Source: Streptomyces ambofaciens ATCC 23877 (GTDB taxonomy: Bacteria > Actinomycetota > Actinomycetes > Streptomycetales > Streptomycetaceae). From it: DNA of 64,000 bases. Below the pieces are notes generated by a model. It searched no databases. It was given only the letters and a program-made list of their open reading frames with translations, and had not been told where the DNA came from. The position numbers and the translations under genes were made by a program. The DNA lies in assembly GCF_001267885.1 (NCBI RefSeq), contig NZ_CP012382.1, positions 6,621,001-6,685,000 of the forward strand, in the 5' to 3' direction. Shown one piece after another: positions 1,224 through 25,406 of this stretch (positions are counted from its first letter, which is position 1; each line of letters starts with the position of its first letter).

Positions 1224-1243
1224 AGCGTGAAACGACTTACGCG
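1224..1243 (+). promoter_or_regulatory. Motif 1 copy (forward), overlaps a start codon
   Basis: The sequence AGCGTGAAACGACTTACGCG is one of ten copies of a 20-bp near-palindrome in the prophage. This copy covers the GTG start of the lipoprotein-like gene and supplies its first codons. It is in the AAACGAC orientation. It is more diverged than the others, so it may be a weaker site. Confidence 0.5.
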
Positions 1244-1421
1244 ACACCTGGCCGTCGTCCTGGCCCTCGTCGCCGCCCTGGCCATGCTCGCGGCCTGCGA
1301 CATCGACGACACCGCTCAGCCGTCGTGCGTGGAGGTCGACGTCGACGCTCCGAAGGTGAAGAAGCCGACGGGCCCGAAGATCACCGCCCCCGCACTGCGC
1401 ATCCCGACGAAGAGGAAGTGA
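1227..1421 (+). CDS. Small putative lipoprotein
   Basis: This 64-residue protein has a basic N-terminus (MKRLTRH), a hydrophobic stretch and a lipobox-like LAAC at about residues 26-29, so it is predicted to be exported and lipid-anchored at the Cys. The mature part is short and rich in Val, Asp, Lys and Pro. The start is a GTG after a GGAGGAGAG ribosome site and lies inside a motif 1 copy. Small prophage lipoproteins sometimes act in superinfection exclusion, but nothing in the sequence shows that here. Confidence 0.6.
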   Translation: MKRLTRHLAVVLALVAALAMLAACDIDDTAQPSCVEVDVDAPKVKKPTGPKITAPALRIPTKRK

Positions 1422-1422
1422 C

Positions 1423-1497
1423 ATGGAAGGCGCCGGAGTAGTCATCCTGATTGCCCTGATCCTCCTGCTTGCGTCCAGTCACAAGCCGAAGAAGTAG
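1423..1497 (+). CDS. 24-residue membrane mini-protein
   Basis: A very short ORF starts one base after the previous stop, with a GAGGAAG ribosome site. It encodes a single hydrophobic helix (VVILIALILLLA) followed by a basic tail HKPKK. Position, ribosome site and composition suggest a real single-pass membrane peptide translated with the lipoprotein. Confidence 0.5.
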   Translation: MEGAGVVILIALILLLASSHKPKK

Positions 1498-1520
1498 CGC
1501 CAACCACACACGCACGGCCT

Positions 1521-1552
1521 AGCCCCCGGTTGCCACGGCGCCGGGGGCTTTC
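1521..1552 (+). terminator. Rho-independent terminator
   Basis: AGCCCCCGG pairs with CCGGGGGCT and is followed by TTTCGG. A similar hairpin followed by the same TTTCGGCGTAGG sequence occurs at 8984-9014, which suggests a duplicated intergenic unit. Confidence 0.75.
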
Positions 1553-1578
1553 GGCGTAGGACGACACAGAGGAGAGAC

Positions 1579-1776
1579 ATGATCAACGGCGGAACCACCA
1601 TCCACACGGCCGACGGATCGACGGTCAACGTCACCCCGCGGGGCCTGGAGTACGACCTCCACGTCCGTAACGCCAGGGGCGAGACCGTCGCCACGGTGGT
1701 CATGAATCAGGACGACCTCGACGCCCTCTACGAGGAGCTGGACGCGCACACGACGGTGGAGTGGGAGGCGGCATGA
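1579..1776 (+). CDS. Hypothetical phage protein
   Basis: A 65-residue protein starting at ATG after an AGAGGAGAG ribosome site. It looks like a small beta-rich domain with an acidic C-terminus (DDLDALYEELDAH). It overlaps the next gene by ATGA. No family recognised. Confidence 0.55.
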   Translation: MINGGTTIHTADGSTVNVTPRGLEYDLHVRNARGETVATVVMNQDDLDALYEELDAHTTVEWEAA

Positions 1777-2264
1777 GTCTGCACGTGCGACCGCTGACCC
1801 TGAAGGAAGCTAACGCCCTCGTCGGCTCCTGGCATCGGCATCACCGTCCCGTGGTGGGCCACCGATTCAGCATCGGTGTGTTCGACGAGGGAGGCGCCCC
1901 TCATGGAGCGGCCATAGTCGGCCGGCCTGTGGCGCGGGCCGTAGATCAAAGCGCCGTCGCGGAGGTCACAAGACTTGTGACGGACGGGCACAAAAACGCG
2001 TGCTCGATGCTCTACGCGGCAGCTGCGCGGGCGGCGTCGGCGATGGGGTTCGAGCGCATTCAGACGTACACCCTGGCGTCGGAGCCTGGCACTTCGTTGC
2101 GCGCTTCCGGGTGGGTGCTCGACGGGACCACCCGGGGCCGGTCGTGGTCGTGCGAGTCCCGTCCTCGCGTGGACACGCACCCCACGGAGGACAAACAGCG
2201 ATGGGTGCGTGTTCTGAATCCGGGTTGGCAGGCGTCCGACAGCGACAGCCGGGAGGCGGCATGA
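1773..2264 (+). CDS. XF1762-like (GNAT-type fold) phage protein
   Basis: The 163-residue protein begins MSLHVRPLTLKEANALVG and contains HRHHRPVVGHRFSIGV, AAIVGRPVAR, VTRLVTDGHKNACSMLY and SEPGTSLRASGW. These are the conserved blocks of the XF1762 family, which is common in phages and related to the GNAT acetyltransferase fold. Its target is not known. The ATG at 1773 is chosen because it overlaps the upstream stop; an in-frame ATG at 1761 lies inside the previous gene. It overlaps the next start by four bases. Confidence 0.75.
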   Translation: MSLHVRPLTLKEANALVGSWHRHHRPVVGHRFSIGVFDEGGAPHGAAIVGRPVARAVDQSAVAEVTRLVTDGHKNACSMLYAAAARAASAMGFERIQTYTLASEPGTSLRASGWVLDGTTRGRSWSCESRPRVDTHPTEDKQRWVRVLNPGWQASDSDSREAA

Positions 2265-2518
2265 CGAAGCGCGAAGCACTGATCCTCACCCTCGCCGGCT
2301 CCCTGGCAACCTCCGGCATCGGCCGCTACGAGGAGCACTACGCCAGGGCGGAGAGGCTCGTCGACGAGGTGTTGGCGGAGGGAGCGCACGAGTTGGCGGA
2401 GGAGGGCCGGAAGTTTGTCGGTCCCCGCGCCTACCTGGGCGAGCCGGACCACGTTACGCGCTACGTCGCCGGCTGGCACGACGCTCTAAACCGTATCGAC
2501 CCGGAGGTGTCCTCATGA
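2261..2518 (+). CDS. Hypothetical phage protein
   Basis: An 85-residue, mostly helical, acidic protein. It starts at an ATG overlapping the previous stop and its TGA overlaps the next ATG. A helix with AERLVDEVLAEGAHELAEEG and a Trp/His-containing end (YVAGWHDALNRID) are visible. No family recognised. Confidence 0.55.
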   Translation: MTKREALILTLAGSLATSGIGRYEEHYARAERLVDEVLAEGAHELAEEGRKFVGPRAYLGEPDHVTRYVAGWHDALNRIDPEVSS

Positions 2519-2844
2519 TGGACCACGTCACCCGACAGATGATCATCGTCAACCAAATCCTGGAGGAGCGCGACGCACAGGACGCCCTCTTCGGCCGGCA
2601 GGACGACCTACCGAACGGCACGGGGGCGGAGGAGATGAAGCAACTAGCCGACCGCTATCGGTACGCCTGTGATGCAGCGTTCGCGGCTGGAGAGGGCACC
2701 CTCCGGCACGTCTTCCTGGAGGAAGTGTTCGAAGCCATGGCGGAGTCCGACCCCGTCAAGCTCCGCGCGGAACTACTCCAGGCCGTCGCCGTGGGCGTGA
2801 AGTGGCTGGAGGCCATCGACAAGCAGCAGGAGGAGAGCCAGTGA
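2515..2844 (+). CDS. MazG-like/phage hypothetical protein
   Basis: A 109-residue helical protein with ERDAQDALFGRQDDLPNGTG, TLRHVFLEEVFEAMAESDP and LRAELLQAVAVGVKWLEAID. This pattern, with the acidic LEEVFEA helix and a C-terminal helix ending WLEAID, is frequent in phage proteins distantly resembling all-alpha NTP pyrophosphohydrolases (MazG-like). If that holds it would hydrolyse non-canonical or excess nucleotides. It is coupled by ATGA overlaps to both neighbours. Confidence 0.5.
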   Translation: MMDHVTRQMIIVNQILEERDAQDALFGRQDDLPNGTGAEEMKQLADRYRYACDAAFAAGEGTLRHVFLEEVFEAMAESDPVKLRAELLQAVAVGVKWLEAIDKQQEESQ

Positions 2845-3176
2845 AGTACATCGACCGATCCGGCGACACCTGGGAGGACGTGTCGGCCGGCATCGTCCGC
2901 ATCGTCGTCATGGGCGGCGAGCCCGTGAAGTTCGCGGAGCCGTGGGACCGGGACGCCGCGGAGGAGAAGTGGGGTCCGTTCGCTCCGGGCGACACCCCCG
3001 CAGAACCCCAGGAAGCCCCCTCTCCCGTCCTCCCGACGGTCGAAGGGGTCATGAGTCGCGCGAGTGTCTTTCAGAGCGCTCACGCCCTCGTGACGGGCCT
3101 TGCGTGGGGCGACGAGGAGAAGCCGTCCGTGTACGACGTCCTGAGCGTCGCGAAGTGGCTGGAGGGCGACGAATGA
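2841..3176 (+). CDS. Hypothetical phage protein
   Basis: A 111-residue protein starting at a GTG that overlaps the previous stop; earlier in-frame starts lie inside the upstream gene. It opens with a small beta region (KYIDRSGDTWEDV), has a Pro/Glu-rich linker near residues 45-62 and ends in a helical segment VYDVLSVAKWLEGDE. The C-terminal segment resembles tails of small phage proteins that follow MazG-like genes. Function unknown. Confidence 0.5.
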   Translation: MKYIDRSGDTWEDVSAGIVRIVVMGGEPVKFAEPWDRDAAEEKWGPFAPGDTPAEPQEAPSPVLPTVEGVMSRASVFQSAHALVTGLAWGDEEKPSVYDVLSVAKWLEGDE

Positions 3177-4346: not shown

Positions 4347-4790
4347 GTGGAGGTAGAGGAACGCTTCTGGGCGAAGGTTGACTTCGACCCGCATGACGAA
4401 GAGCGGTGCTGACGGTGGCAAGGCGGCACCGTGACGCGGGGAGGGTACGGGCAGTTTGCGCTTCAGCGGGTGAACGTCCTTGCTCACCGCTTGGCGTATG
4501 AGTTGGAGCGGGGAGACATACCAGAGGGGTTGGACCTGGACCACCTTTGTCGTAGTCGGGGCTGCGTGAACCCCTGGCACTTGGAGCCCGTTACCGAGCG
4601 GGAGAACGCGTTGCGGGGCGAGGGGCCGACCGCGCAGAACGCGCGTAAGACAGCCTGCCCGCAGGGGCATCCCTACGACGTCCATGGCACTGAGGCGGAC
4701 GGGTCGCCACATCGGCGATGCAGCCGGTGTTCTCGTGCCTCGGGCCGGGCTCGCCAACGTAGATACCGAGAGAGGAAACGCCATGACTGA
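4347..4790 (+). pseudogene. HNH endonuclease with an in-frame TGA
   Basis: Read from the GTG at 4347 the frame gives EERFWAKVDFDPHDEERC, then TGA at 4410-4412, then RWQGGTVTRGGYGQF and a complete HNH domain. That domain has LAHRLAYELERG, LDLDHLCRSRGCVNPWHLEP and a second cysteine pair CSRCSR. Phage HNH proteins of this type have a C-W-x-W signature at exactly this point, so the stop probably replaces a TGG Trp codon. The intact remainder could start at a GTG at 4431 and still encode the catalytic core (119 residues). It is therefore either a recent pseudogene, a shortened active gene or a readthrough case. Confidence 0.65.
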
Positions 4791-5052
4791 CGCTCGCCGT
4801 TACCGCCTCGCCTGGCTTTCCGCCCGACGGCGAGTAGCCCGTGAGTCCGTCATGGCGACGGAGGCGGTCGAGCACCTCAGCGCCGACCGGGACCGGTGGC
4901 GGCAGCGCTACGAGCGCCTGGCGGCAGATCTGGAGGCGTCGCGTAAAACGACTCACGCGTCCCTCGTCGACGTGGGTCCCGACGGGGAGGGCGGAAGCGT
5001 CGTGAAACTCGCCGAAGTCCCCGCGTCACATCCGCCCGGGATTACGACATAA
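4783..5052 (+). CDS. Small coiled-coil hypothetical protein
   Basis: An 89-residue protein with an AGAGAGGAAACGCC ribosome region before its ATG, overlapping the end of the HNH frame. It is Arg/Ala/Glu-rich and helical (ADRDRWRQRYERLAADLEAS). A motif 1 copy at 4940-4959 lies in frame inside it and supplies the residues RKTTHA, so that part of the protein is dictated by the DNA site. Confidence 0.5.
   Translation: MTDARRYRLAWLSARRRVARESVMATEAVEHLSADRDRWRQRYERLAADLEASRKTTHASLVDVGPDGEGGSVVKLAEVPASHPPGITT
4940..4959 (+). promoter_or_regulatory. Motif 1 copy (forward), inside a CDS
   Basis: The sequence is CGCGTAAAACGACTCACGCG, the consensus form. It lies within the coding region of the preceding gene, about 150 bp upstream of the gp3-like start. 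Its position inside a gene argues for an operator or transcription-blocking role rather than a promoter element. Confidence 0.65.
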
Positions 5053-5053
5053 C
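5023..5053 (+). promoter_or_regulatory. Duplicated upstream element, copy 1
   Basis: This stretch contains GCGTCACATCCGCC, a 2-base variable part and GGATTACGACAYAAC. It is nearly identical to 17737-17767. One copy precedes the gp3-like gene and the other the sigma-like gene, both followed by an AGGCAC-containing leader. It is probably a shared promoter or activator site; the -35/-10 boxes cannot be assigned with certainty. Confidence 0.5.
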
Positions 5054-5116
5054 CCATGTGTAAGGCCGAACAAGGCCGCACACACCACGCACACCGCCAA
5101 CGAAAGGCACTCACAC

Positions 5117-5899: not shown

Positions 5900-5997
5900 G
5901 CACCACACGCACCGCGAGCAACGCAAGGCGCCGCTCCCAATGATTCCGGCACTGGGAGCGGCGCCTCCCACGATTCTACGCACACTGAGGTGAAGCA

Positions 5998-7339: not shown

Positions 7340-7340
7340 C

Positions 7341-8356: not shown

Positions 8357-8371
8357 CCATCCCGCACCCCG

Positions 8372-8399
8372 CGGCCCCGGACACCGACGATCCGGGGCC
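8372..8399 (+). terminator. Hairpin, likely terminator
   Basis: GGCCCCGGA pairs with TCCGGGGCC across an 11-base loop, 15 bp after the stop at 8356. There is no clear T-run. Confidence 0.55.
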
Positions 8400-8429
8400 C
8401 TCACACGAGCTACTCACGGAGGAGAGAGC

Positions 8430-8978: not shown

Positions 8979-8983
8979 CCCTC

Positions 8984-9014: not shown

Positions 9015-9046
9015 CGGCGTAGGAGGACCGAGAGAGAAGAGGGCAC

Positions 9047-10850: not shown

Positions 10851-10870
10851 CGCGTAAAACGACTCACGCG
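10851..10870 (+). promoter_or_regulatory. Motif 1 copy (forward)
   Basis: CGCGTAAAACGACTCACGCG lies two bases after the stop at 10849 and 24 bp before a terminator hairpin. It is an exact copy of the 4940 site in the AAACGAC orientation. Confidence 0.7.
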
Positions 10871-17448: not shown

Positions 17449-17638
17449 CGAAGAGGTCGGATTCCTGGCGGAGATGGCGGGGTTGCTGGGAGCTATCCCC
17501 GCGTTCGCCGCAGTACTCCAGTGGGCGACGGCAACAGCGCTCTACTGCCTCACCGGCTGGGAGAAGTGCCCGACGGCCGTAGCTGACGTGACGCTCGCGG
17601 AAGCCGCCGGCATGGCGATTCACTTCCTGGCCGCATGA
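17417..17638 (+). CDS. Small hydrophobic hypothetical protein
   Basis: A 73-residue Ala/Leu-rich protein with AEMAGLLGAIPAFAAVLQWA and a second hydrophobic stretch ending AIHFLAA, perhaps membrane-associated. The TTG start is well placed behind AGGGGG; the ATG at 17426 is an alternative. It overlaps the preceding gene by 32 bp. Motif 1 and a terminator follow directly. Confidence 0.45.
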   Translation: MIIMTGPQGSDEEVGFLAEMAGLLGAIPAFAAVLQWATATALYCLTGWEKCPTAVADVTLAEAAGMAIHFLAA

Positions 17639-17642
17639 CACC

Positions 17643-17662
17643 CGCGTAAAACGACTCACGCG
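17643..17662 (+). promoter_or_regulatory. Motif 1 copy (forward)
   Basis: CGCGTAAAACGACTCACGCG, an exact consensus copy between a stop codon (17638) and a terminator (17665). Confidence 0.7.
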
Positions 17663-17664
17663 AC

Positions 17665-17694
17665 GCCCCCGTTCCAGCGAGGGACGGGGGCTTT
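17665..17694 (+). terminator. Rho-independent terminator
   Basis: GCCCCCGT pairs with ACGGGGGC and is followed by TTTCG. It separates the 17.0-17.6 kb unit from the sigma-like gene. Confidence 0.75.
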
Positions 17695-17736
17695 CGTGTA
17701 CCTGAATCACTGTGTGACCCACGTCACAAAACATCA

Positions 17737-17767
17737 GCGTCACATCCGCCTCGGATTACGACACAAC
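17737..17767 (+). promoter_or_regulatory. Duplicated upstream element, copy 2
   Basis: GCGTCACATCCGCC, two variable bases and GGATTACGACACAAC repeat the element at 5023-5053 almost exactly. It lies about 30 bp upstream of the sigma-like gene and is followed by the leader AAGGCACACACGGAGGAG, which recurs in other prophage units. Probable shared promoter. Confidence 0.5.
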
Positions 17768-17798
17768 ACAAGCACAAGGCACACACGGAGGAGTTCAC

Positions 17799-18569
17799 AT
17801 GAGCCGCGACCAGATCAACGCCGACCAGATCCGCGCCGCACAGGGTGGCAACAGTGACGCCATGTGGCAGATCGTCATGGGTCTGGACGCGACTCTCCGC
17901 GGCATCGTCCGCAGCGTCGCCCCGACGGCAAACGAGAAGGACGCGGAGGACTACCTCCAGGAGGCGCGGGTGGTCCTGATCCAGCGCATCAAGGACTTCG
18001 ACTCCGACGCGTCGTCGGCATCGCTGATGACTTACGTCTATCAGGCAGCCCGTCGCGCGGTGACGGAGGCGCACATCTCCAACTCGTGCCCCGTCTCCGT
18101 TCCCGCATCGGCCGCGATCGTCGTCCGTCACCTCCTGTGGCGCCACGGTGGCGACGCGGAGAAGGTGTGGGCGGAGCTGGAGGAGCAGCGGAGCGCCACG
18201 CACAAGATCTCCCGGGAGATGTTCGTCTCGGTCATCGAAGCACTCGCGGAGGTGACGAGCCTCGACGCCCCCACCGGCGGAGAAGACGGCGACGGCTCCG
18301 GCCTCACGCTCTCCGACGTCCTCCCCGACCCCTTGTCGGAAGCCACCGACTCCATCGAGCGCCGCGACCTGGCCCGGTGGCTCATGACGCAGATCCCACA
18401 GCGCCAGGCATACGCGCTTCGCGCCTTCTACGGCGTCGGCATGACGAAGCAGGAGGACGCGGAAACGTGCGACGACCTGACCGTCAAGCCGGCCGCCCTC
18501 CGCAAGCTCCGTTCCCGCGGACTGTGCAGCGCGCTTGCCGTCGCAGACGCGCACGACGTGACCGCGTGA
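17799..18569 (+). CDS. Sigma-factor-like protein
   Basis: The 256-residue protein has a region 2-like segment at about 45-100 (DAEDYLQEARVVLIQRIKDF then LMTYVYQAARRAVTEAHIS) and a region 4-like helix-turn-helix at about 198-245 (IPQRQAYALRAFYGVGMTKQ then VKPAALRKLRSRG). They are joined by an acidic linker. This order matches sigma-70 family factors. It may redirect RNA polymerase to phage promoters such as the four repeated ones downstream, but that is inference. It has its own promoter element shared with the gp3-like gene and a good GGAGGAG ribosome site. Confidence 0.65.
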   Translation: MSRDQINADQIRAAQGGNSDAMWQIVMGLDATLRGIVRSVAPTANEKDAEDYLQEARVVLIQRIKDFDSDASSASLMTYVYQAARRAVTEAHISNSCPVSVPASAAIVVRHLLWRHGGDAEKVWAELEEQRSATHKISREMFVSVIEALAEVTSLDAPTGGEDGDGSGLTLSDVLPDPLSEATDSIERRDLARWLMTQIPQRQAYALRAFYGVGMTKQEDAETCDDLTVKPAALRKLRSRGLCSALAVADAHDVTA

Positions 18570-18606
18570 ATCACACACCCAACCGAACCGAACTGGAGCA
18601 ACGACC

Positions 18607-18753
18607 ATGAACCGACTCCCCTCCCTCGACGACTACGACCTCTCCGGCGTCCGCCTCGACGAAGCCGCCCTCTGGGGTGACGACGTGCGCTACCTCGTGG
18701 AGGCCCGCAGCGACGGCGAGGCGTTCGACGGCTTCACCATCGACACCCTGTAG
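18607..18753 (+). CDS. Small acidic hypothetical protein
   Basis: A 48-residue acidic ORF (MNRLPSLDDYDLSGVRLDEA...), 37 bp after the sigma-like gene with GGAGCAACGACC before the ATG. It may act with the sigma-like protein, but nothing in the sequence shows this. Motif 1 follows it. Confidence 0.45.
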   Translation: MNRLPSLDDYDLSGVRLDEAALWGDDVRYLVEARSDGEAFDGFTIDTL

Positions 18754-18763
18754 TACGCACCGC

Positions 18764-18783
18764 CGCGTAAAACGACTCACGCG
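18764..18783 (+). promoter_or_regulatory. Motif 1 copy (forward)
   Basis: CGCGTAAAACGACTCACGCG in the short gap between 18753 and the gene at 18812; no hairpin terminator accompanies it here. Confidence 0.7.
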
Positions 18784-18811
18784 ACTCGAAGTTACGGACA
18801 GAGGAGAGAAC

Positions 18812-19804
18812 ATGACCGAGCACATCGCTACGTGCCGTTGGGCCGCCGCTGACCACCTGCGCGCGCAGGTTTCCGGCGACGCCGTGCACATCGAACACCG
18901 AACCAACCACACCATCAACGGCGACGTCTCCCTCCGCTCCGACGCTGCCCGCACCTTCGCCCGCGGCATCCTCGCCCTGGCCGACGAGATCGACGGGGGA
19001 GAGGCGGAGGAGGTGCCGGCCCTGAGTCGTACCCCGAAGGTTGGTGACCGGGTGCGTGTCGTGCGCAACGCCTACAGCTTCGAGGGCGCCGAGAACATCG
19101 GTCGGGTGGGGGTGCTGAAGGAGGTCACCCCCGAAGACGCCCAGTCGCACCGTGTGTCCTTCACGGACGACGCTTACGGCTGGTGGTGCGCGGAAGTGGA
19201 GTACGTGGAGAGCGCGCCGGCCGACTCCCGCCCGAAGGTGGGCGACCGGTTCCGCGTCACGCAAGACTTCCTGGAGTGCGCGGGTGTCCACGTCGGTGAC
19301 ATCGTCGCCGTGGGCGAACTGACCGGAGATGAGTCGTTCCGCACCACGCCGTGCGCCGACGGCCGACGGTGGCACTTCGGCTTCTCCAGCATCGGTGACG
19401 GCCTGGAGCCCGTCACCGACGAGCCGGCTCACCCCCTCGACGAGCCGGGACTCGCCGGCTGGGAGCGCGACCTCATCGAGAGCGCGTCGCCCCCTGCCCC
19501 GATCAAGGTCGGTGACCTCGTGACGATCGTGCGCGCGGAGTACAGCGCCCGCGACGAGGACGGCCGCACGGGCATCGTGGACGAGGTCGACGACAACGAC
19601 GACCGCCTTCCATACCGCATCGTCGACGAGGCAGGCGACTTCGTCGCGTGGGCCGCAGAGGTTCGGAAGGTCGACGAGCCGGAGGACGCCACCCCCTCCC
19701 CCTTCGCCCGCTACGTCGACGAGGCGAAGAAGCTCCTCGCCGGCACCGACCACACCGGCACCGACGTCATCGCCCTGGCCCGGGAGCTGTCGGAGCACCC
19801 CTAG
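18812..19804 (+). CDS. Multi-KOW/SH3-like repeat protein
   Basis: A 330-residue protein. After an N-terminal domain of about 70 residues it has three barrel-like units beginning KVGDRVRVVRNAYS, KVGDRFRVTQDFLE and KVGDLVTIVRAEYS. Two of these contain a G(R/I)VG-type turn and a W-x-AEV strand. The C-terminus is a helical segment RYVDEAKKLLAG. The N-terminal domain, one barrel and the C-terminal helix are shared with the paralogue at 19852. The function is unknown; binding of nucleic acid or a host protein is plausible. Confidence 0.6.
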   Translation: MTEHIATCRWAAADHLRAQVSGDAVHIEHRTNHTINGDVSLRSDAARTFARGILALADEIDGGEAEEVPALSRTPKVGDRVRVVRNAYSFEGAENIGRVGVLKEVTPEDAQSHRVSFTDDAYGWWCAEVEYVESAPADSRPKVGDRFRVTQDFLECAGVHVGDIVAVGELTGDESFRTTPCADGRRWHFGFSSIGDGLEPVTDEPAHPLDEPGLAGWERDLIESASPPAPIKVGDLVTIVRAEYSARDEDGRTGIVDEVDDNDDRLPYRIVDEAGDFVAWAAEVRKVDEPEDATPSPFARYVDEAKKLLAGTDHTGTDVIALARELSEHP

Positions 19805-19805
19805 C

Positions 19806-19825
19806 CGCGTAAAACGACTCACGCG
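19806..19825 (+). promoter_or_regulatory. Motif 1 copy (forward)
   Basis: CGCGTAAAACGACTCACGCG one base after the stop at 19804, in the gap before the paralogous gene at 19852. Confidence 0.7.
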
Positions 19826-19851
19826 ACACCAACCACACACGAGGAGAGACC

Positions 19852-20349
19852 GTGACTAGACACACACTGAGGTGCCGTGTAACCGACGGGGACTACGCGG
19901 AGGCGCACATCGACGCGGACGGCGACGTGCGCCTTGAGGTGCACATGGGTCAGCACACCTCCGCCTTCGTCTACGGCCGCCCCACAGAGTTCGCCGCCTT
20001 CGCCCGTGCCGTCCTGGCAGGGACGGGGGAGAGCGTGGAGACGCTGACCGACGGGTCGATCAATGTAGGTGACCGGGTGGAGATCCTCCCGTCCGCCAAC
20101 AACACGACCACCGCTGGCCGTGTGGGAGTCGTCAGTAAGGTCGACCGTAGCGGTAACGACGACATGCCGTACCGAGTCGACGACGAGGCGGGCGGGTTCA
20201 TTGCCTGGGCGACGCGAGTCCGCAAGATCTCCAGCGATTCCGCCACCTCCCCGCGCGCTGACTTCGTCTCCCAGGCCCGCGCCGCACTCGACGGCACCAA
20301 CCCCACGGCCGCAGACATAGTCCGCCTCGCGGAGTTCCTGGCCGGCTGA
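19852..20349 (+). CDS. KOW/SH3-like protein (paralogue of 18812 gene)
   Basis: A 165-residue protein with the same architecture as its upstream neighbour but only one barrel: an N-terminal domain (HTLRCRVTDGDYAEAHIDAD), NVGDRVEILPSANN...GGFIAWATRVRKI, and a C-terminal helix FVSQARAALDG. It looks like a duplicate that kept or gained one repeat. It starts at GTG after GAGGAGAG. Function unknown. Confidence 0.55.
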   Translation: MTRHTLRCRVTDGDYAEAHIDADGDVRLEVHMGQHTSAFVYGRPTEFAAFARAVLAGTGESVETLTDGSINVGDRVEILPSANNTTTAGRVGVVSKVDRSGNDDMPYRVDDEAGGFIAWATRVRKISSDSATSPRADFVSQARAALDGTNPTAADIVRLAEFLAG

Positions 20350-20369
20350 CGCGTAAGTCGTTTCACGCG
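20350..20369 (-). promoter_or_regulatory. Motif 1 copy (reverse) next to a promoter
   Basis: CGCGTAAGTCGTTTCACGCG overlaps the end of the upstream gene (stop at 20349). It is in the opposite orientation to the six copies upstream. Its centre is 34.5 bp before the centre of motif 2 at 20384. Confidence 0.7.
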
Positions 20370-20383
20370 ACTTTCCCCGCAGG

Positions 20384-20415
20384 GGTTGTGTGGTCGACAT
20401 AACCCGTGCCATAGT
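20384..20415 (+). promoter_or_regulatory. Phage promoter with overlapping motif 2 operator
   Basis: The palindrome GGTTGTGT-N5-ACATAACC (20384-20404) overlaps a -35 box TTGTGT; an 18-bp spacer leads to CATAGT (20410-20415) as -10. The leader contains AAGGCACACACGG and a GGGGCG/CGCCCC hairpin (20442-20465) just before the ribosome site. One of four near-identical promoters in the prophage. Confidence 0.7.
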
Positions 20416-20478
20416 CATCACATCGCAAGGCACACACGGAAGGGGCGCTCCGCACGGGGCGCCCCAGGGGAGGACGTC

Positions 20479-20814
20479 ATGGCACTCACCTTTCACCTGA
20501 TCTCGTACCGCACCCTGTCGGGCGAGACAGGCGTGGCCCGGGTCGGTACCGACCGCACCCGCCCGGTCCGATCGGAGTGCAGGGAGCAAATCCCCGGCTT
20601 CCTCAGCGGATCGCACCTGGGGCCGGAGCCGACCCTCACGCTCACCTACGAGACGGAGCGCGGGACGCAGACGAAGACGGTCAGCCGCACCCTGCTGAAC
20701 CGCAGCGTCGGCCGGCTCGTCGCCCGCGCTGCGGACCGGGGCGAAGCGTGGAACATCGCCGTCGTCGACGAGCGCGGGGAGGATGTCACCGACTCCGTCC
20801 CCTGCTTCGCCTGA
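20479..20814 (+). CDS. Hypothetical phage protein
   Basis: A 111-residue beta-rich protein (FHLISYRTLSGETGVARVG..., TLTLTYETERGTQTKTVSRT) under the promoter at 20384. The ribosome site GGGGAGGA directly follows a leader hairpin, which could regulate translation. No family recognised. Confidence 0.5.
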   Translation: MALTFHLISYRTLSGETGVARVGTDRTRPVRSECREQIPGFLSGSHLGPEPTLTLTYETERGTQTKTVSRTLLNRSVGRLVARAADRGEAWNIAVVDERGEDVTDSVPCFA

Positions 20815-20847
20815 CCAACTAGCCGAAGCGCCCTCCGCGGCGCTGGC

Positions 20848-20922
20848 GCCCCGCATAGGCAAGCCCGACTACCCGGTACCCCCAGTGCCGGCGGGCGCGC
20901 GGTTCGAATCCGCGGCGGGGCA
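20848..20922 (+). tRNA. tRNA-like element, unusual D and anticodon arms
   Basis: A perfect 7-bp acceptor stem (GCCCCGC 20848-20854 with GCGGGGC 20915-20921, discriminator A) and a perfect T arm (CGCGG-TTCGAAT-CCGCG, 20898-20914) are clear. The middle does not fold canonically. CGGTA/TGCCG can form an anticodon stem with loop CCCCCAG, which would read CCC (Gly) but has C instead of U at position 33. The D stem would be only UAG/CUA. An alternative long hairpin (GCCCG 20863-20867 with CGGGC 20892-20896, enclosing CCGGTA/TGCCGG) competes. CCA is not encoded. It may be a degenerate phage tRNA or a tRNA mimic. Confidence 0.5.
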
Positions 20923-20957
20923 CTTCACAGACCTACCGACTCACTAAAGGAGCAACC

Positions 20958-21239
20958 TTGTTCGAGATCTCCCGCATCGCCGACCTGCACCCCACGGCGA
21001 TCACGCACAGCGCCCGTCAGCTCCGCCTAGTCTTCCCCAACGGCTTCGGCGCGTCGGTCATCACCGACGGATACGGCGCGGAGGAAGGGCTCTACGAGGT
21101 GGCCGTGCTGGACGCGGACGGGCACGTCACCTACGACACCCCGGTCACGGGCGACGTCGAGGGATACCAGACCTCCGACGAGGTCGCGGCGCTCCTGCAC
21201 AGCATCGCGGTCCTGCCATCGTCCGCGCTGGAGCGGTGA
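20958..21239 (+). CDS. Hypothetical phage protein
   Basis: A 93-residue protein with a TTG start after AAAGGAGC. It is beta-rich in the middle (LRLVFPNGFGASVITDG) and helical at the end. It starts a coupled run of three small genes after the tRNA-like element. Function unknown. Confidence 0.5.
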   Translation: MFEISRIADLHPTAITHSARQLRLVFPNGFGASVITDGYGAEEGLYEVAVLDADGHVTYDTPVTGDVEGYQTSDEVAALLHSIAVLPSSALER

Positions 21240-21391
21240 CCGTGAAGCACAACCCCAACGACTCCGCCATCCGCGCCGCCTTCGACCGCTTCCACACCAC
21301 GGCGTCGACGTCCCGCAAGTCGGCCGTCGCCCAGCTCCACACCGACATGAAGCGCGCCGGGGGACCGGTGCCGCAGGAGGAGGAGAAGTGA
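21236..21391 (+). CDS. Small basic hypothetical protein
   Basis: A 51-residue basic ORF starting at a GTG that overlaps the previous stop and ending over the next GTG. It has SAIRAAFDRFHTTASTSRKS and QLHTDMKRAGG, helical and basic. Function unknown. Confidence 0.45.
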   Translation: MTVKHNPNDSAIRAAFDRFHTTASTSRKSAVAQLHTDMKRAGGPVPQEEEK

Positions 21392-21585
21392 CCACGCAGT
21401 ACGAGGAGCACTACATCGTCGAGCACGTCAAGGCGGAGGGGAAGGTCGACGTCGAGCAGTACGACAACCCGTCGGAGGCGATCGGGGCCTACAACGAGCT
21501 GGCCCGTGTGCTGAGTCGCGGAGAGAAGATCAACCTCCACCGGTACAGCTCCGTCGTGCTCGCCTCGTCCGCCCGCGCGAAGTAG
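21388..21585 (+). CDS. Small hypothetical protein
   Basis: A 65-residue beta-alpha-beta protein (EEHYIVEHVKAEGKVDVEQY...SEAIGAYNELARVLSRG). The GTG start overlaps the upstream stop. No family recognised. Confidence 0.5.
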   Translation: MTTQYEEHYIVEHVKAEGKVDVEQYDNPSEAIGAYNELARVLSRGEKINLHRYSSVVLASSARAK

Positions 21586-21596
21586 GAGACCCGACC

Positions 21597-22223
21597 ATGC
21601 CGAGGCCCTCCCGACTCCCGTTCCGCGCAGCCGTCGTCACGGCCTCTGCGGCGACCGTCGCTGCCCTGGCGTTCACCATCGCCCCCGACGCGCAGGCGCC
21701 CGACTACCCGCGTCTGTCCGACGTCGTCTCCGCCCCCGTCGTGACGCCCTCCCCGAACTCTCCGTCGCCGTACCGTCCGGAGCCGCGAGAGCCCCGTCAG
21801 ACGACGCGGGACGAGCCGCGCAAGACACTGACGCCGACGCCCTCCCCGACGGTCGCGAAGCCGTCGAAGACGCCCGCCGTGAAGCGGCCCATCGCGAAGC
21901 CGCCGGCCGACATCCGCATCAGCTTCTACCGCGACTGCACCGGCCACGCTCAGCAGTGCATCGACGCCGGCACCCTGACGATGTACGCGGGCAAGATCCT
22001 GGCCGGCCACAACTACGACGGCTATCAGTGGCTCTCCCGCGTCCCCGTCGGCCGCACGGTCCGCGTCATCTCCGGCCCGCTCGCGGGGACGTACCGGGTC
22101 TACGGCCACCAGTACATCGACCGCCAGGGCGGCAAGATCCCGGCGTTCAGCGGCGGCCCGGACCTCGTGCTCCAGACGTGCGAGGGGGAGGGGACGGGGT
22201 TCTCGCTGCTACGTCGGGTCTGA
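21597..22223 (+). CDS. Secreted sortase-like protein
   Basis: The 208-residue protein has an N-terminal signal or anchor segment (FRAAVVTASAATVAALAFTI), then a Pro/Thr/Lys-rich linker to about residue 105. A C-terminal domain of about 100 residues contains ILAGHNYDGYQWLSRVPVG, VRVISGPLAGTYRVYGHQYI, DLVLQTCEGEG and FSLLRRV. His in GHN, Cys in LQTC and the final Arg pair occupy the positions of the sortase catalytic His-Cys-Arg, and the strand pattern fits a sortase barrel. It could attach proteins at the cell surface or have lost that activity. Prophage-encoded surface modification is an attractive but unproven idea. Confidence 0.55.
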   Translation: MPRPSRLPFRAAVVTASAATVAALAFTIAPDAQAPDYPRLSDVVSAPVVTPSPNSPSPYRPEPREPRQTTRDEPRKTLTPTPSPTVAKPSKTPAVKRPIAKPPADIRISFYRDCTGHAQQCIDAGTLTMYAGKILAGHNYDGYQWLSRVPVGRTVRVISGPLAGTYRVYGHQYIDRQGGKIPAFSGGPDLVLQTCEGEGTGFSLLRRV

Positions 22224-22261
22224 TCAACAGCCACGCCAACCACGCTCGTAGAGGAGCCATC

Positions 22262-22408
22262 ATGCCCACCTTCGCCGACTCCCTTGATCAGTTCTTCAAC
22301 GACCTCCGTGACGCCGGGGAATGCGAGTTCTGGGAGTGCCCGCGCACGGGTGCCCAGCCTCACGACCGTAACTGCCTGACGGGCAGTTCGACGGACGACG
22401 ACGAGTAG
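22262..22408 (+). CDS. Small Cys-containing hypothetical protein
   Basis: A 48-residue acidic protein with CEFWECPRTG and HDRNCLTG, a C-x4-C...H-x3-C arrangement that could bind zinc. The ATG follows AGAGGAGCCATC. Function unknown. Confidence 0.5.
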   Translation: MPTFADSLDQFFNDLRDAGECEFWECPRTGAQPHDRNCLTGSSTDDDE

Positions 22409-22416
22409 GAGTCCAC

Positions 22417-22584
22417 GTGATGATGCTCGGACGGTTCTGCCCCGACGGTCCTGGCGGCCGTGACTGCTACTGCTGCGGACAGCCGCCGGGGAGGGGGAGG
22501 ACCCTTGCCCGTCGGGCGCAGCGCCGCAGGGAGCGGCACGCTTGGCGCAAGAGCGTGAGTCGTTTTACGCGAGTTGGCGAGTAG
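22417..22584 (+). CDS. Small basic Cys-rich protein
   Basis: A 55-residue, very Arg-rich ORF (CPDGPGGRDCYCCGQ then RRAQRRRERHAWRK) starting at GTG 22417 or ATG 22420. Its C-terminal codons are formed by motif 1 (22552-22571), and its TAG abuts motif 2. The end of the protein is therefore constrained by the operator DNA. Function unknown. Confidence 0.4.
   Translation: MMMLGRFCPDGPGGRDCYCCGQPPGRGRTLARRAQRRRERHAWRKSVSRFTRVGE
22552..22571 (-). promoter_or_regulatory. Motif 1 copy (reverse) next to a promoter
   Basis: AGCGTGAGTCGTTTTACGCG, reverse orientation, within the 3' end of the upstream gene. Its centre is 34.5 bp before the centre of motif 2 at 22586, the same spacing as at 20350. Confidence 0.7.
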
Positions 22585-22585
22585 G

Positions 22586-22617
22586 GGTTGTGTGGTCGAC
22601 ATAACCCGTGCGATAGT
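22586..22617 (+). promoter_or_regulatory. Phage promoter with overlapping motif 2 operator
   Basis: GGTTGTGT-N5-ACATAACC (22586-22606) overlaps -35 TTGTGT; an 18-bp spacer leads to -10 GATAGT (22612-22617). The leader has AAAGGCACTCACTCACG and an AAGGAG ribosome site for the gene at 22656. Confidence 0.7.
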
Positions 22618-22655
22618 CGCTACAGCGAAAGGCACTCACTCACGAAGGAGTCGAA

Positions 22656-23285
22656 ATGAACCTCTGCACCTCCACCCGCCGCAAGGTCACCAAGCACTAC
22701 GGCACCACGTGGGTGTTCGGTCAGCCGGAGTGCGGCAAGCCGGCGACGCACTTCCGCAAGACGGCCGACGACTCCGGCGCCTCCGGGTGGATCATCTACA
22801 TGTGCGAGGAGCACGCGGGGGAGGGCTTCGAGGTCATCGCAGACGAGGAGCCGGCGGAGGCCGTCGAGCACCGGGAGACCACGGTCACCGTCGCGGGCGT
22901 CGACCGCGTCATCCGCACGGAGGTGGGAGGCCGTGTCCGCACCGTCAAGCAGCTCGAAGCGGCGCACACGAAGGCCGTAAAGGCGGCCCTCGTAGAGATG
23001 CGTAAGGCGAACCTGGCGGGCTTCCAGGAGGCCGCGAATGCTGCGGAGGTTAGCGCAAAGAAGAACCCCGGCTCGTGGTTCACTCAGGAGGACGCCAAGC
23101 GGGCGCGCAACATCGCTCGTCGGGCGGAGCGAGGGACCCTCTACTCCCACACCTCCCCGTGGGCGTCGGACCTGAAGCCGTTCCCCCCGGTCAAGTTCAC
23201 GGACGAGGTCCCCGCCTACCTCGTCGAGATCGAGCCGGGCCACTACGCGACGGAGGAGGCCGCGGAGTCGCTCACCCTCTTCTAG
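22656..23285 (+). CDS. Hypothetical phage protein with Cys/His motif
   Basis: A 209-residue protein under its own promoter and closed by a strong terminator. The N-terminal 50 residues contain PECGKPATHF and YMCEEHA, which may form a zinc site. The middle is helical with conserved-looking basic and Ala-rich stretches (EAAHTKAVKAALVEMRKANL) and KNPGSWFTQEDAKRARNIAR. The C-terminus has a Pro-rich beta segment. Function unknown; the single-gene cassette layout resembles a phage moron. Confidence 0.55.
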   Translation: MNLCTSTRRKVTKHYGTTWVFGQPECGKPATHFRKTADDSGASGWIIYMCEEHAGEGFEVIADEEPAEAVEHRETTVTVAGVDRVIRTEVGGRVRTVKQLEAAHTKAVKAALVEMRKANLAGFQEAANAAEVSAKKNPGSWFTQEDAKRARNIARRAERGTLYSHTSPWASDLKPFPPVKFTDEVPAYLVEIEPGHYATEEAAESLTLF

Positions 23286-23293
23286 ACCCTTTG

Positions 23294-23324
23294 GAGCCCC
23301 TGTCAATTCCGGTGACAGGGGCTC
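23294..23324 (+). terminator. Strong terminator, copy 1 of 3
   Basis: GAGCCCCTGTCA and TGACAGGGGCTC form a perfect 12-bp stem with loop ATTCCGG. The same 31 bp occurs at 24959 and 25822. Confidence 0.8.
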
Positions 23325-23334
23325 TAGGCGCCAG

Positions 23335-23532
23335 TCACTTGCGCCTCCACCTGAAGACCGCGTCGACGAGGGAGCGGAAGTAGTCCCCCAGGGCGCGGAT
23401 GATGTGGGGGCGAGCGTCCTCCGACGTCCCGCGCAGAGCAATGCGCAGGCCGATGATGCCGCCGGCTACGACGACGAGGACGCAAAGGACGAGGGCGAGC
23501 AGGACCCACGGCAGAGCTTCAGCGAACGACAT
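23335..23532 (-). CDS. Small single-pass membrane protein
   Basis: A 65-residue minus-strand protein starting MSFAEALPWVLLALVLCVLV, a strong transmembrane segment, followed by a basic amphipathic tail ending FRWRRK. An AAGGG ribosome site lies seven bases upstream. It is convergent with the gene ending at 23285 and lies against the direction of all other prophage genes up to 27.7 kb. This suggests separate expression, possibly during lysogeny. No family recognised. Confidence 0.6.
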   Translation of the reverse strand: MSFAEALPWVLLALVLCVLVVVAGGIIGLRIALRGTSEDARPHIIRALGDYFRSLVDAVFRWRRK

Positions 23533-23918
23533 GACGAACCCTTCGTGCCATGCCTTCGGAGAGGGCGCCGCCCCGTGGCGACGCTGCAACCTCAACGAAG
23601 GACAGTTGTGCCTGTCAGACACGGCGCCCGCTAGGCCGTGCTCCGCCGGAGCGGATTCGTTGAAGTCGATACTCCCGATCTTCGGTACTGCGGTACTGCG
23701 TTGCGCGGGCGGACAGGCATTGGCCACAACGTCTGTCCCTACGAGGGGCGTTCAGAAGCCCCATTCGTCCTCCGGGGAAACTGTCCCAGGGACGAGATCT
23801 TTCCAGTTTTCCGATGGCGCCTTTGGCGGCGACGCCTCTTCTCACTTTCCGGGGAGGACGGTAGCCCACGAACCTGGCGCCGTGTCAACTCAGCCACGAG
23901 GCACTCACAGGAGGAGCC
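23533..23918 (+). other. 386-bp stretch without a supported gene
   Basis: This divergent gap between the minus-strand membrane protein and the gene at 23919 is less GC-rich than its surroundings. The frames crossing it have odd composition and no ribosome sites. It contains a tandem GGTACTGC (at about 23682) and several short inverted repeats. It may hold the promoters of both flanking genes or a small RNA; nothing definite is visible. Confidence 0.35.
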
Positions 23919-24116
23919 ATGCCCGTATTGACCATCCCCGCCCGCGACATCCGCCAGGGCGACCGCTTCAGCCTCCATGGCTTCCGCCGCACGGCTTCTG
24001 ACGGAGCCTGGCCGTGGGGAGACCACAGCGTCAGCCTGACCTTCGAGGACGGAGGCTACGCCCTCGTGTCGGACGACACGGAGTTCGTCGTCAACCGCGA
24101 CGGGGAGGCGGTGTGA
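23919..24116 (+). CDS. Small hypothetical protein
   Basis: A 65-residue beta-rich protein (VLTIPARDIRQGDRFSLHGF, HSVSLTFEDGGYALVSDDTE) with a strong AGGAGGAG ribosome site. The RQGD...V-x-F-x-DG pattern recurs in the proteins at 25014 and 25214, so these may be related small barrels. It overlaps the next gene. Confidence 0.55.
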   Translation: MPVLTIPARDIRQGDRFSLHGFRRTASDGAWPWGDHSVSLTFEDGGYALVSDDTEFVVNRDGEAV

Positions 24117-24505
24117 CGGAATACGACTACTACAACCCACCTCCGCCGGGGGTCCGCGTCTCGACGGACTTCGGCGACTACGCAACGTGCCATGCGTGCG
24201 GAGGGTTCACGACAGTGTGGCGTGACGGCTTGCTCGCCCTTCACGACCGGCCCCGGGCCGGCGGGCAGTGTCCGGCGTCGTGGTCCGCGGCGGATCTGGA
24301 GTCCGCGATAGCGCGAGACGACCGCCTCAACCCGGAGGAGGAGACGGCAAGCTCCTGGGCGTGGCGATGGGTCAGCATGTGCAGGGGCTACCAGACACTA
24401 AGCAACGGCAGTACGGAACACTGCTGGCACCCCATCTGCGAGGAGCGGAAGGCGAAGGGGATCTACTGGACGCTCTCCGGGTGGAGACGTCGCGACGTCG
24501 CGTGA
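24113..24505 (+). CDS. Hypothetical protein with putative zinc site
   Basis: A 130-residue protein starting at a GTG overlapping the previous stop. It has CHACGG near residue 26 and CRGYQ, CWHPIC in the second half, possibly zinc-binding. It is rich in Trp. Its last codons lie in motif 1 (24499-24518). Function unknown. Confidence 0.5.
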   Translation: MTEYDYYNPPPPGVRVSTDFGDYATCHACGGFTTVWRDGLLALHDRPRAGGQCPASWSAADLESAIARDDRLNPEEETASSWAWRWVSMCRGYQTLSNGSTEHCWHPICEERKAKGIYWTLSGWRRRDVA

Positions 24506-24518
24506 GTCGTTTTACGCG
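24499..24518 (-). promoter_or_regulatory. Motif 1 copy (reverse) next to a promoter
   Basis: CGCGTGAGTCGTTTTACGCG, the exact reverse complement of the consensus. It overlaps the stop of the upstream gene. Its centre is 24.5 bp before the centre of motif 2 at 24523, ten bases closer than at 20350 and 22552. Confidence 0.7.
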
Positions 24519-24522
24519 ATGA

Positions 24523-24554
24523 GGTTGTGTGGTCGACATAACCTGTGTCATAGT
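24523..24554 (+). promoter_or_regulatory. Phage promoter with overlapping motif 2 operator
   Basis: GGTTGTGT-N5-ACATAACC (24523-24543), -35 TTGTGT, 18-bp spacer, -10 CATAGT (24549-24554). The leader has GAGGGACACACGG; the gene at 24607 follows. Confidence 0.7.
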
Positions 24555-24606
24555 TAGGGCACCGCGAGGGACACACGGTCTCTCCCAAACCTCCCCGGAG
24601 GTCACC

Positions 24607-24942
24607 ATGAACGCCACGACCAACACCATCGAGGCCGGCACCATCGTTCGCGCCCCGCGGGTCGTGGCGACCGTGTCCACCGGGGTCCGCAAGGGACTCG
24701 TTGTCGACACCTTCGGCGACTCGGCCTTCCTCGTCTGGTTCTACGGCGCCGGCGACGCCAAGACGGAGACCCGCCTCGTCATGAAGCGGGAGATGACGGA
24801 GGTCGGCAGCGTCGGTGACCTGTCGGAGCGGATGCTCTCCCGCCTCCTGGGCGGCATGACGGAGGACGGTCCGGCCCGCGCGATGGGCTTCAAGATCCAC
24901 CGTCTCCGGGCGCAGCTCCGCTCCGCGCGCCGGGGCTACTGA
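24607..24942 (+). CDS. Hypothetical phage protein
   Basis: A 111-residue protein with an N-terminal beta domain (GTIVRAPRVVATVSTGVRKG, FLVWFYGAGD) and a basic helical end (HRLRAQLRSARRGY). The N-terminal part is again reminiscent of a small SH3-like barrel. It forms a single-gene cassette between promoter 24523 and the terminator at 24959. Confidence 0.5.
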   Translation: MNATTNTIEAGTIVRAPRVVATVSTGVRKGLVVDTFGDSAFLVWFYGAGDAKTETRLVMKREMTEVGSVGDLSERMLSRLLGGMTEDGPARAMGFKIHRLRAQLRSARRGY

Positions 24943-24958
24943 CCACCCCTCACCATGT

Positions 24959-24989
24959 GAGCCCCTGTCAATTCCGGTGACAGGGGCTC
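24959..24989 (+). terminator. Strong terminator, copy 2 of 3
   Basis: Identical 31 bp to the terminator at 23294: a 12-bp stem GAGCCCCTGTCA/TGACAGGGGCTC with loop ATTCCGG. Confidence 0.8.
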
Positions 24990-25013
24990 GCTCAGTTCTC
25001 GTTTGGAGGAACC

Positions 25014-25226
25014 ATGCGCGACTACCGTCGTTTGATCATGGCTGAGGCCATCCGCCAGGGTGACTCACTGGAGTTCAAGGGCGCGCAGAGGGCGGTGAGC
25101 GAACCGCCCCGGATGGGCCGGTTGCTGCACCACGTCTTCGTGTCCTTCACGGATGGGGAGGAGGCCGTGTTCACGGCTTCCGACCCCGTCATGGTGCACC
25201 GGCAGGACGCGGCATGTTCCGCCTGA
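25014..25226 (+). CDS. Small hypothetical protein
   Basis: A 70-residue protein (IRQGDSLEFKGAQ..., HHVFVSFTDGEEAVFTASDP) with a GGAGGAACC ribosome site. It resembles the protein at 23919 in its IRQGD and V-x-F-x-DG segments, which suggests a small duplicated family. It overlaps the next ORF. Confidence 0.5.
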   Translation: MRDYRRLIMAEAIRQGDSLEFKGAQRAVSEPPRMGRLLHHVFVSFTDGEEAVFTASDPVMVHRQDAACSA

Positions 25227-25393
25227 CCTTCGAGGACGGCCTCTCCTTCCTCGTCGACGAGGACGCGCGGCTCCACTTCCTCCGCCTGGCGAAGCGCCGG
25301 GGCGACGAGCTGACCCGGGTCCGCGGAGGCCACGTCATCACCCTGGCCGGCCGACGGGTGCGACGGGTGGCGATCATTGCGGAAGTCGCGTGA
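25214..25393 (+). CDS. Small basic hypothetical protein
   Basis: A 59-residue ORF (FRLTFEDGLSFLVDED..., RRVRRVAIIAEVA) overlapping the previous gene by 13 bp. It shares the F-x-L-x-F-EDG pattern of the 23919 protein. Its stop lies in motif 1 (25387-25406). Confidence 0.45.
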   Translation: MFRLTFEDGLSFLVDEDARLHFLRLAKRRGDELTRVRGGHVITLAGRRVRRVAIIAEVA

Positions 25394-25406
25394 GTCGTTT
25401 TACGCG
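25387..25406 (-). promoter_or_regulatory. Motif 1 copy (reverse) next to a promoter
   Basis: CGCGTGAGTCGTTTTACGCG, identical to the 24499 copy and again 24.5 bp centre-to-centre from motif 2 (25411). Confidence 0.7.

Follow-up and report, generated by a model that had tools for sequence, protein, structure and literature searches.

Dispersed near-palindromes of the Streptomyces prophage Samy as probable operators of its putative immunity repressor gp32

A 20-bp near-palindrome, hereafter O1 (CGCGTRAAACGACTYACGCG), is scattered along the Streptomyces prophage Samy and probably serves as the operator of the putative Samy immunity repressor gp32, in an array that resembles the conserved inverted repeats (CIRs) of phage phiC31 and has a new sequence. 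The window analysed is the whole stretch of 64,000 nucleotides at positions 6,621,001 to 6,685,000 of the Streptomyces ambofaciens ATCC 23877 contig NZ_CP012382.1. Its positions 1-25000 are 100% identical to Streptomyces phage Samy (OR263580), and positions in the OR263580 record equal window positions plus 27025. According to the available text of PMC11302927, the prophage spans 6,589,778-6,650,857 of the host, which places its right end near window 29,857, and gp32 is strongly expressed under all conditions tested. The putative repressor gene gp32 (record 25580-26356) lies downstream of gp31 (record 24861-25487), an SprT-like, protease-like gene, and this gp31-gp32 operon (record 24861-26356) is located directly left of the window. 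Across the region of the sites nearly all genes are directed rightward, gp79 being on the opposite strand.

Counting matches with up to three mismatches on both strands, we found ten O1 copies in the window and none in 100 dinucleotide shuffles; the ten copies listed by a sequence-only reading of this DNA proved exact in all coordinates and strands. The 8.39-Mb host genome contains 13 matches, all within Samy (6,602,340 to 6,646,406), and its scan with the reversed pattern as a control gave none; rather than being equally frequent in the host chromosome, the sites are restricted to the prophage. Nine copies are forward (record 8365, 10596, 24787, 28249, 31965, 37876, 44668, 45789 and 46831) and four are reverse (record 47375, 49577, 51524 and 52412), the latter all lying to the right of the former; the three copies left of the window (record 8365, 10596 and 24787) are all forward. 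Within the window, forward copies (+ strand) are found at 1224..1243, overlapping the start of gp37 (1227-1421), at 4940..4959, within the 3' part of gp47 (4783-5052), at 10851..10870, 1 bp past the gp61 stop, at 17643..17662, 4 bp past the gp67 stop, at 18764..18783, between gp69 and gp70, and at 19806..19825, between gp70 and gp71, with a stop codon 1-10 bp before each of the last four. Directly behind the copy at 17643 comes a terminator-like hairpin (17665-17691), and then a promoter-like element of class II and gp68, a sigma-factor gene. The copy at 4940 stands about 100 bp ahead of another class II promoter-like element, located within 5023-5066 and belonging to gp48, which encodes the recombination directionality factor. 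The earlier placement of the forward copies at gene ends, within an open reading frame or before a terminator was thereby borne out. The reverse copies (- strand) occupy 20350..20369 and 22552..22571, where the -35-like elements of the gp72 and gp78 promoters, respectively, follow after 16 bp, and 24499..24518 and 25387..25406, which overlap the ends of gp81 and gp84 and lie 6 bp before the -35-like element of the gp82 and gp85 promoters. Eight of the 13 Samy copies are fully noncoding, compared with 9.1% of 20-mers (p 4e-6), and seven start within -20 to +12 bp of a stop codon against 5.0% expected (p 1e-6). The gp37 reading frame, whose start is overlapped by the first O1 copy of the window, opens like a lipoprotein signal peptide in a by-eye translation.

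The motif is also kept in related prophages. Allowing at most one mismatch, O1 occurs in four of 392 Streptomyces genomes, namely the Samy host (12 copies), G152 (six copies; the same genome as G397, Streptomyces sp. SID5910) and two others with one copy each, and exact copies are present on three IMG/VR contigs. With a slightly wider pattern, six contigs of a species-genome collection were retrieved: Streptomyces sp. MH60 and SID5910 carry several copies each, and the remaining four, comprising two other Streptomyces and two contigs of metagenome-assembled genomes of other phyla, carry single copies. Homologues of gp32 were detected in 13 of the 392 genomes (E 1e-3 or better, two of them weak and partial) and at 28 IMG/VR loci. 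An initial anchor search with five mismatches was swamped by GC-rich coding matches and was replaced by a template search; de novo array scans covered 16 sequences, then 40, then nine full virus records, and the best template cluster of each sequence was compared with five Markov shuffles. Relatives with a gp32-like protein have their own dispersed near-palindrome on the template NSCGYnnnnC/GnnnnRCGSN, with a phage-specific core, such as TCCGTGAGTC/GACTCACGGA in G155, TCCGCTAATC/GATTAGCGGT in G307, ACCGTAAGGC/GCCTTACGGA in G358, TGCGCAAAAC/GTTTTGCGCA in G096, AGCGTGAAGC/GATTCACGCG in G361 and AGCGCAAAAC/GTTTTGCGCT in G402, which carries an array of its own. Of the 20 distinct long sequences, which measure 40-80 kb and include Samy, 15 have a template cluster that exceeds all five shuffles, and so do the repeats G405 (= G082) and G409 (= G155), which are not among the 20.

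The most constant member of these arrays is the copy at the protease-repressor operon, present at 37 of 39 loci. Sites were picked by eye from the aligned gp31 upstream regions of these loci; an O1-like site precedes gp31 in 34 and directly precedes gp32 in three more, two being without one. The gap between the site and the gp31 ATG, counted at 31 of the 34 loci (L107, G405 and G409 were dropped as repeats of other loci), is 39-42 bp in nine, 49-54 bp in 19 and 57-58 bp in three. In L100, L101 and G402, where the register upstream of gp31 is ambiguous, the copy, with three mismatches from the G402 consensus, is located between gp31 and gp32, 48-49 bp before gp32, which suggests a separate repressor promoter in these phages. 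The genes gp31 and gp32 occur together in all 39 gp32-bearing records. In Samy (record 24807-24863), a -10-like TATACT ends 7 bp before the gp31 ATG, which probably makes the gp31 mRNA leaderless; at 12 of the 39 loci TATACT is placed 6-7 bp ahead of the ATG. Protease-repressor pairs are known from the ImmA-ImmR type, which Samy resembles in that its metalloprotease-like gene adjoins the repressor gene and is probably co-transcribed with it. It differs in that the match of gp31 to the SprT-like family falls below the cut-off. A role for gp31 in processing the repressor upon induction is conceivable. The SprT-like gene is placed elsewhere in two other phages, DrManhattan of Arthrobacter and Barnstormer of Microbacterium.

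Motif and repressor vary together. Taking one repressor-operon site per phage in 28 phages (31 before removal of gp32 sequences more than 95% identical; L100, L101 and G402 were left out), we found a correlation between the distances of motif and gp32 (Mantel r 0.47, p 0.0002); motif distance correlates as well with that of gp31 (r 0.40, p 0.0002) and of the kinase gp29 (r 0.22, p 0.010). The correlation with gp32 persists after controlling for the adjacent gp31 (r 0.29, p 0.0006), while that with gp31 is not significant after controlling for gp32 (r 0.10, p 0.16). In a comparison of 16 genomes, from which gp66 was left out as missing in one genome, the correlation of O1 with gp32 remained significant after controlling for each of 15 other proteins. 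This covariation supports gp32 as the O1 binder, without proving it.

Five O1 copies of Samy are linked to a second element, O2 (GGTTGTGTGGTCGACATA), an 18-bp near-palindrome with exactly five perfect copies in Samy, each 4-18 bp past an O1, and with no further copy in Samy within four mismatches. The O1 copies concerned are the four reverse ones and the forward copy at record 24787, before gp31. In the window, O2 overlaps the -35-like element at 20384..20401, 22586..22603, 24523..24540 and 25411..25428 (+ strand), within early promoter-like blocks of the form TTGTGT-N18-CATAGT before gp72 (20386..20415) and gp82 (24525..24554), TTGTGT-N18-GATAGT before gp78 (22588..22617) and TTGTGT-N18-CATGCT before gp85 (25413..25442), all on the + strand. 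The reverse copies had been described as lying just upstream of a promoter; a conserved promoter-like block is indeed present at all four, but no promoter was detected when window 17500-26000 was scanned with a strict sigma-70 consensus, and the elements are called promoter-like here on the basis of block conservation across relatives. The geometry was surveyed at 38 right-arm sites with a promoter-like block nearby, chosen by eye from 18 sequences, other right-arm sites being left out. TTGTG or TTATG is found in 37 of these early promoters, one having no recognisable element. Among the 37, O1 and the -35-like element are 5-6 bp apart in eight, 14-16 bp in 27 and 12 or 19 bp in two, and the spacer to the -10-like hexamer is 18 bp, or 17 bp in two cases. 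At early and repressor promoters alike, O1 thus has two main positions one helical turn apart, which points to contact with the polymerase or an O2-bound protein and not to the mere presence of a site.

In relatives, O2 takes the form TTGTG-N8-CAYAA, with a mostly palindromic and phage-specific N8, and its core varies among phages largely independently of O1. Since G155, G406 and G408 share a common O1 core and differ in their O2 cores, O2 is probably read by a different protein or domain. O2 covaries a little more closely with gp31 than with gp32 (partial p 0.023), and more closely again with the exonuclease gp34 (p 0.002), which we take as a lead only. Three terminator-like 32-bp inverted repeats, 97-100% identical (window 23293-23324, 24958-24989 and 25821-25852), directly follow gp78, gp82 and gp85, each of which stands behind an O1/O2 promoter, giving promoter-gene-terminator cassettes. 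A second promoter-like element, GTCACA-N17-CATAAC, was seen by eye about 100 bp after the O1 copies at record 31965 and 44668, at window 5023-5066 and 17737-17780, where it precedes the genes for the recombination directionality factor and the sigma factor; in G361, G082 and G179, the words ACATAAC or CCATAAC recur four times.

Altogether, the likely explanation of these observations is that O1 is bound by a gp32 dimer. Five copies lie upstream of a -35-like element, one at the gp31-gp32 operon and four at early genes of the right arm; from these, gp32 would control initiation on a constant face of the helix, jointly with the factor that binds O2 across the -35. The eight other copies, half of them directly after stop codons in rightward gene runs, would hold bound repressor that acts as an elongation block or a silencing anchor, and long lytic operons would thereby be kept off in the lysogen.

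The orientation of the sites could matter for the second of these functions. A direction is defined only where the core halves differ, forward being the arrangement in which the half with T at position 9 is on the right; all 13 Samy copies are AAAC/AGTC hybrids. We term solitary the eight copies that are not linked to O2 or its promoters, although those at record 31965 and 44668 lie about 100 bp before the other promoter-like element. All eight are forward, whereas the promoter-linked copies comprise one forward and four reverse (Fisher p 0.007, for a post hoc grouping). Orientation had been thought to depend on position; the split is present, nine forward copies being followed by four reverse ones, but it tracks promoter linkage rather than position and is not conserved beyond close relatives. 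The forward copy at record 24787 lies directly upstream of the promoter-like block of the repressor operon, which refutes a rule that all forward copies avoid promoters. The Samy arrangement recurs in MH60, with 8 forward and 3 reverse copies, in V2930, with 9 and 2, and in SID5910, with 7 and 2, largely at the same positions and hence not independent, and the partial contig G401 has six forward copies. Because the promoter blocks of the four reverse Samy copies are 62-90% identical over 73-87 bp, these copies may descend from one cassette.

Elsewhere, the early promoters of G410 include two with a forward copy and one with a reverse copy, and G361 has seven listed asymmetric sites that are all forward, two of them at early promoters. 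L097 and L098 carry a reverse site at the repressor operon. The idea that reverse orientation defines early promoters fails on the forward copies at two early promoters each in G410 and G361. Many relatives have symmetric cores: all sites in G155 (13/13), G403 (11/11), G406 (10/10) and G408 (6/6), nearly all in G082 (15/16) and G404 (8/9), and a share of them in G358 (8/11), G096 (4/6), G307 (4/10), G321 (2/6) and G179 (1/6). The orientation split is real, confined to Samy and its close relatives, and best explained by promoter linkage. At promoters orientation is probably incidental, because the reverse copies share a duplicated-looking block and relatives have symmetric or forward sites there. 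Direction is thus not needed at promoters, and the forward one is strongly preferred at solitary AAAC/AGTC sites, with possible exceptions in a reverse copy at G395 14757 and a reverse copy with one mismatch at G410 11438.

A comparison with the stoperators of phage L5, which the sequence-only reading had invoked, holds in part. In the available text of PMC9283540 and PMC6550527, the L5 repressor gp71 has more than 20 dispersed sites, some at promoters and others in short intergenic spaces, whose orientation correlates with transcription and whose motif covaries with the repressor. The O1 copies of Samy are likewise dispersed, at promoters and intergenic, with a motif that covaries with the repressor, and all eight solitary sites follow transcription. 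However, the four reverse promoter-linked copies among the 13 run against transcription, and the L5 sites are asymmetric 13-mers bound by a monomer, unlike the 20-bp near-palindrome of Samy, whose core is symmetric in several relatives. Streptomyces phage R4, a temperate phage with dispersed sites (PMC10276819, available text), has a repressor annotated as similar to L5 gp71 and an enriched word, CACTTGCACA, that is not palindromic. In the profile comparison, made with the L5-like R4 gp29 and not with L5 gp71, gp32 showed no similarity (probability 0.1%, P 0.42). Five copies of the R4 word (L153) lie in the left arm, on the minus strand, and three in the right arm, on the plus strand, in agreement with both directions of transcription, as stoperators of the L5 type would be. 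The solitary sites of Samy perhaps work like L5 stoperators. Going further, a stoperator system could have evolved independently of L5 in Samy-family phages, with a dimeric, palindrome-binding repressor to which solitary AAAC/AGTC hybrid sites would give a direction, such that polymerase is blocked only in the lytic direction, and which would work either way at promoters, with a separately evolving O2; we regard this fuller scheme as doubtful, if conceivable.

Several observations weigh against gp32 as the repressor that reads O1. Searches with the protein itself gave nothing above the cut-off in Pfam or NCBIfam and, at E 0.01, nothing in PHROGs. L119 and L120, which have the most diverged gp32 (29-32%), carry no O1 site at the operon. 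Five of the 20 long sequences do not beat their controls: G187, G401 and G408 tie with them, and G404 and G407 fall below, with nine and two sites, respectively, by their own consensus. Among short loci (10-21 kb), an O1-type cluster rises above controls in only six of 26 (L099, L103, L104, L109, L117 and L118, with L104 and L109 coming from records that are also among the long ones; L108 belongs to the G404 record). No such intergenic array was seen in three Arthrobacter and Microbacterium phages that have a protein whose match to gp32 is limited to the middle part. The distances used for the covariation come from sites chosen by eye, one per phage, that of G361 being a weak match to its own array. 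Since the major capsid protein (p 0.0018) and gp86 (p 0.019) keep a motif signal after controlling for gp32, shared ancestry contributes to the correlation. No cluster emerged among candidate specificity residues of gp32, and a residue-level specificity code was dropped. Finally, O1 lies upstream of the -35 and not over it, which would also suit an activator.

That gp32 or another O1 protein acts mainly as an activator, which would turn on the early cassettes of the right arm as well as the repressor operon, is the most serious of the alternatives, although we consider it unlikely. The protein would be placed near -52 or -62 on the polymerase face, in the manner of class I activators, and O1 stands upstream of the -35-like element at mostly two positions one helical turn apart, the element itself being overlapped by O2 and not by O1. 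The repressor gene is, moreover, expressed in lysogens according to the available text of PMC11302927. However, eight of the 13 Samy copies are away from these promoters, four of them directly after stop codons, where an activator needs none, and the same placement is found for the phiC31 CIRs, which are said to be repressor sites.

With a still smaller probability, O1 could be bound by another phage protein (the sigma factor gp68, gp70, gp86 or the helix-turn-helix (HTH) protein gp91) or by a host protein. Distances of gp86 and of the capsid protein also track the motif, and gp91 (HTH_31 plus DUF5753) is a clear HTH protein. It was, however, not found in six distinct long relatives (G096, G082, G155, G403, G404 and G406), nor in G405 and G409, several of these bearing arrays; the distance of gp70 does not track O1 (r -0.02), and the most conserved site is at the gp31-gp32 operon. 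Phage-specific cores within one host genus are not readily explained by a host protein, and a host regulator at O1 was rejected, as the host genome has no further copy outside Samy.

Polar DNA motifs such as KOPS and Ter offer a precedent for a replication, segregation or packaging signal oriented toward a flip point near 47 kb of the phage, and the forward/reverse split is perfect in Samy and three close relatives. This reading is nevertheless very improbable: cores are symmetric in several relatives, forward sites occur past the flip in G410, and a fixed spacing ties the reverse copies to promoter blocks. Nor does GC skew reverse where the sites do: in the initial 50 kb of the record its sign changes lie near 13, 15, 26 and 43 kb, with none between 44 and 49 kb. 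Equally remote is an RNA hairpin (terminator or attenuator), suggested by the inverted repeat often found after stop codons: the forward RNA forms a weak 5-bp stem (-4.2 kcal/mol) and the reverse strand a stronger one (-8.7), most Samy copies have A-C at positions 6 and 15, the reverse copies stand upstream of promoters, and window 1-30000 has no Rfam match.

In layout, the closest counterpart of the Samy array is that of phiC31, whose repressor c reportedly binds the CIRs. The four c-family phages scanned (phiC31, BT1, TG1 and AbbeyMikolon) have 12-16 dispersed near-palindromes per genome, and their arrays differ between related phages, as in gp32 phages. Samy, with 13 copies of which eight are fully noncoding, shows the same dispersal. 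Eight of 16 phiC31 CIRs lie within 26 bp after a stop codon, compared with seven of 13 O1 copies at stops, and the repressor gene follows a deoxynucleoside monophosphate kinase gene in both phages. The likeness to CIRs proposed from the sequence therefore stands for layout, that is, dispersed near-palindromes, gene ends and repressor slot, but not for sequence. The c-family sites are symmetric palindromes centred on CTCACGTGAG and not on NSCGYnnnnC/G, and the phiC31 CIR, CCTACTCACGTGAGTAGG, was found de novo, the best phiC31 match to the Samy motif having five mismatches. No gene is annotated as SprT-like before c in the four c-family records. The c protein matches PF25746, and gp32 does not; the note in the Samy record relates gp32 to phrog_29596 and phrog_19947 (c-type PHROGs) and to the phiC31 repressor, and among the names shown, its other relatives are called hypothetical or uncharacterized proteins. 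Membership of gp32 in the c family was not established by our searches, which gave no c-family Pfam or PHROG match and a weak collinear profile match to c (P 0.004, probability 8-9%). By the tests made, the Samy array appears to belong to neither the phiC31 CIR nor the L5 family, and to be like CIRs in layout.

What is new in the Samy-family array is the O1 sequence and the second operator O2, the dispersed repressor array itself being of a known kind. Neither O1 nor O2 was found in the literature searched, where the gene name SAMYPH_32 matched only PMC11302927, and the words "operator" and "promoter" are absent from the main text of that paper in its available form. If our reading is correct, a binding site is gained for the putative repressor in a large group of Streptomyces prophages that is mostly unannotated, repressor specificity becomes readable from sequence, and immunity groups become predictable before any test. 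The re-specified arrays, a "password" for each phage, suggest how each virus stays silent and distinguishes itself from its relatives. In Samy, phiC31 and R4 alike, the repressor lies between lysis and early genes and is accompanied by an array of scattered sites; gp32 has no clear similarity to the phiC31 or R4 repressors, which raises the question of why such a layout keeps arising. The two-position spacing, together with natural forward, reverse and symmetric sites, makes polar elongation blocking testable with existing sequences.

Extension of the array to Arthrobacter and Microbacterium phages was rejected: the palindromes of Liebe, DrManhattan and Barnstormer at least equal the shuffles but resemble coding repeats. 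Arthrobacter phage Liebe (L152) has nine copies of CTGGCCATCTTC, all on one strand (20536, 22026, 24534, 25486, 27701, 30175, 39056, 42330 and 43000), several of them about 50 bp before gene starts, and these repeats are possibly a phage-specific promoter or start element.

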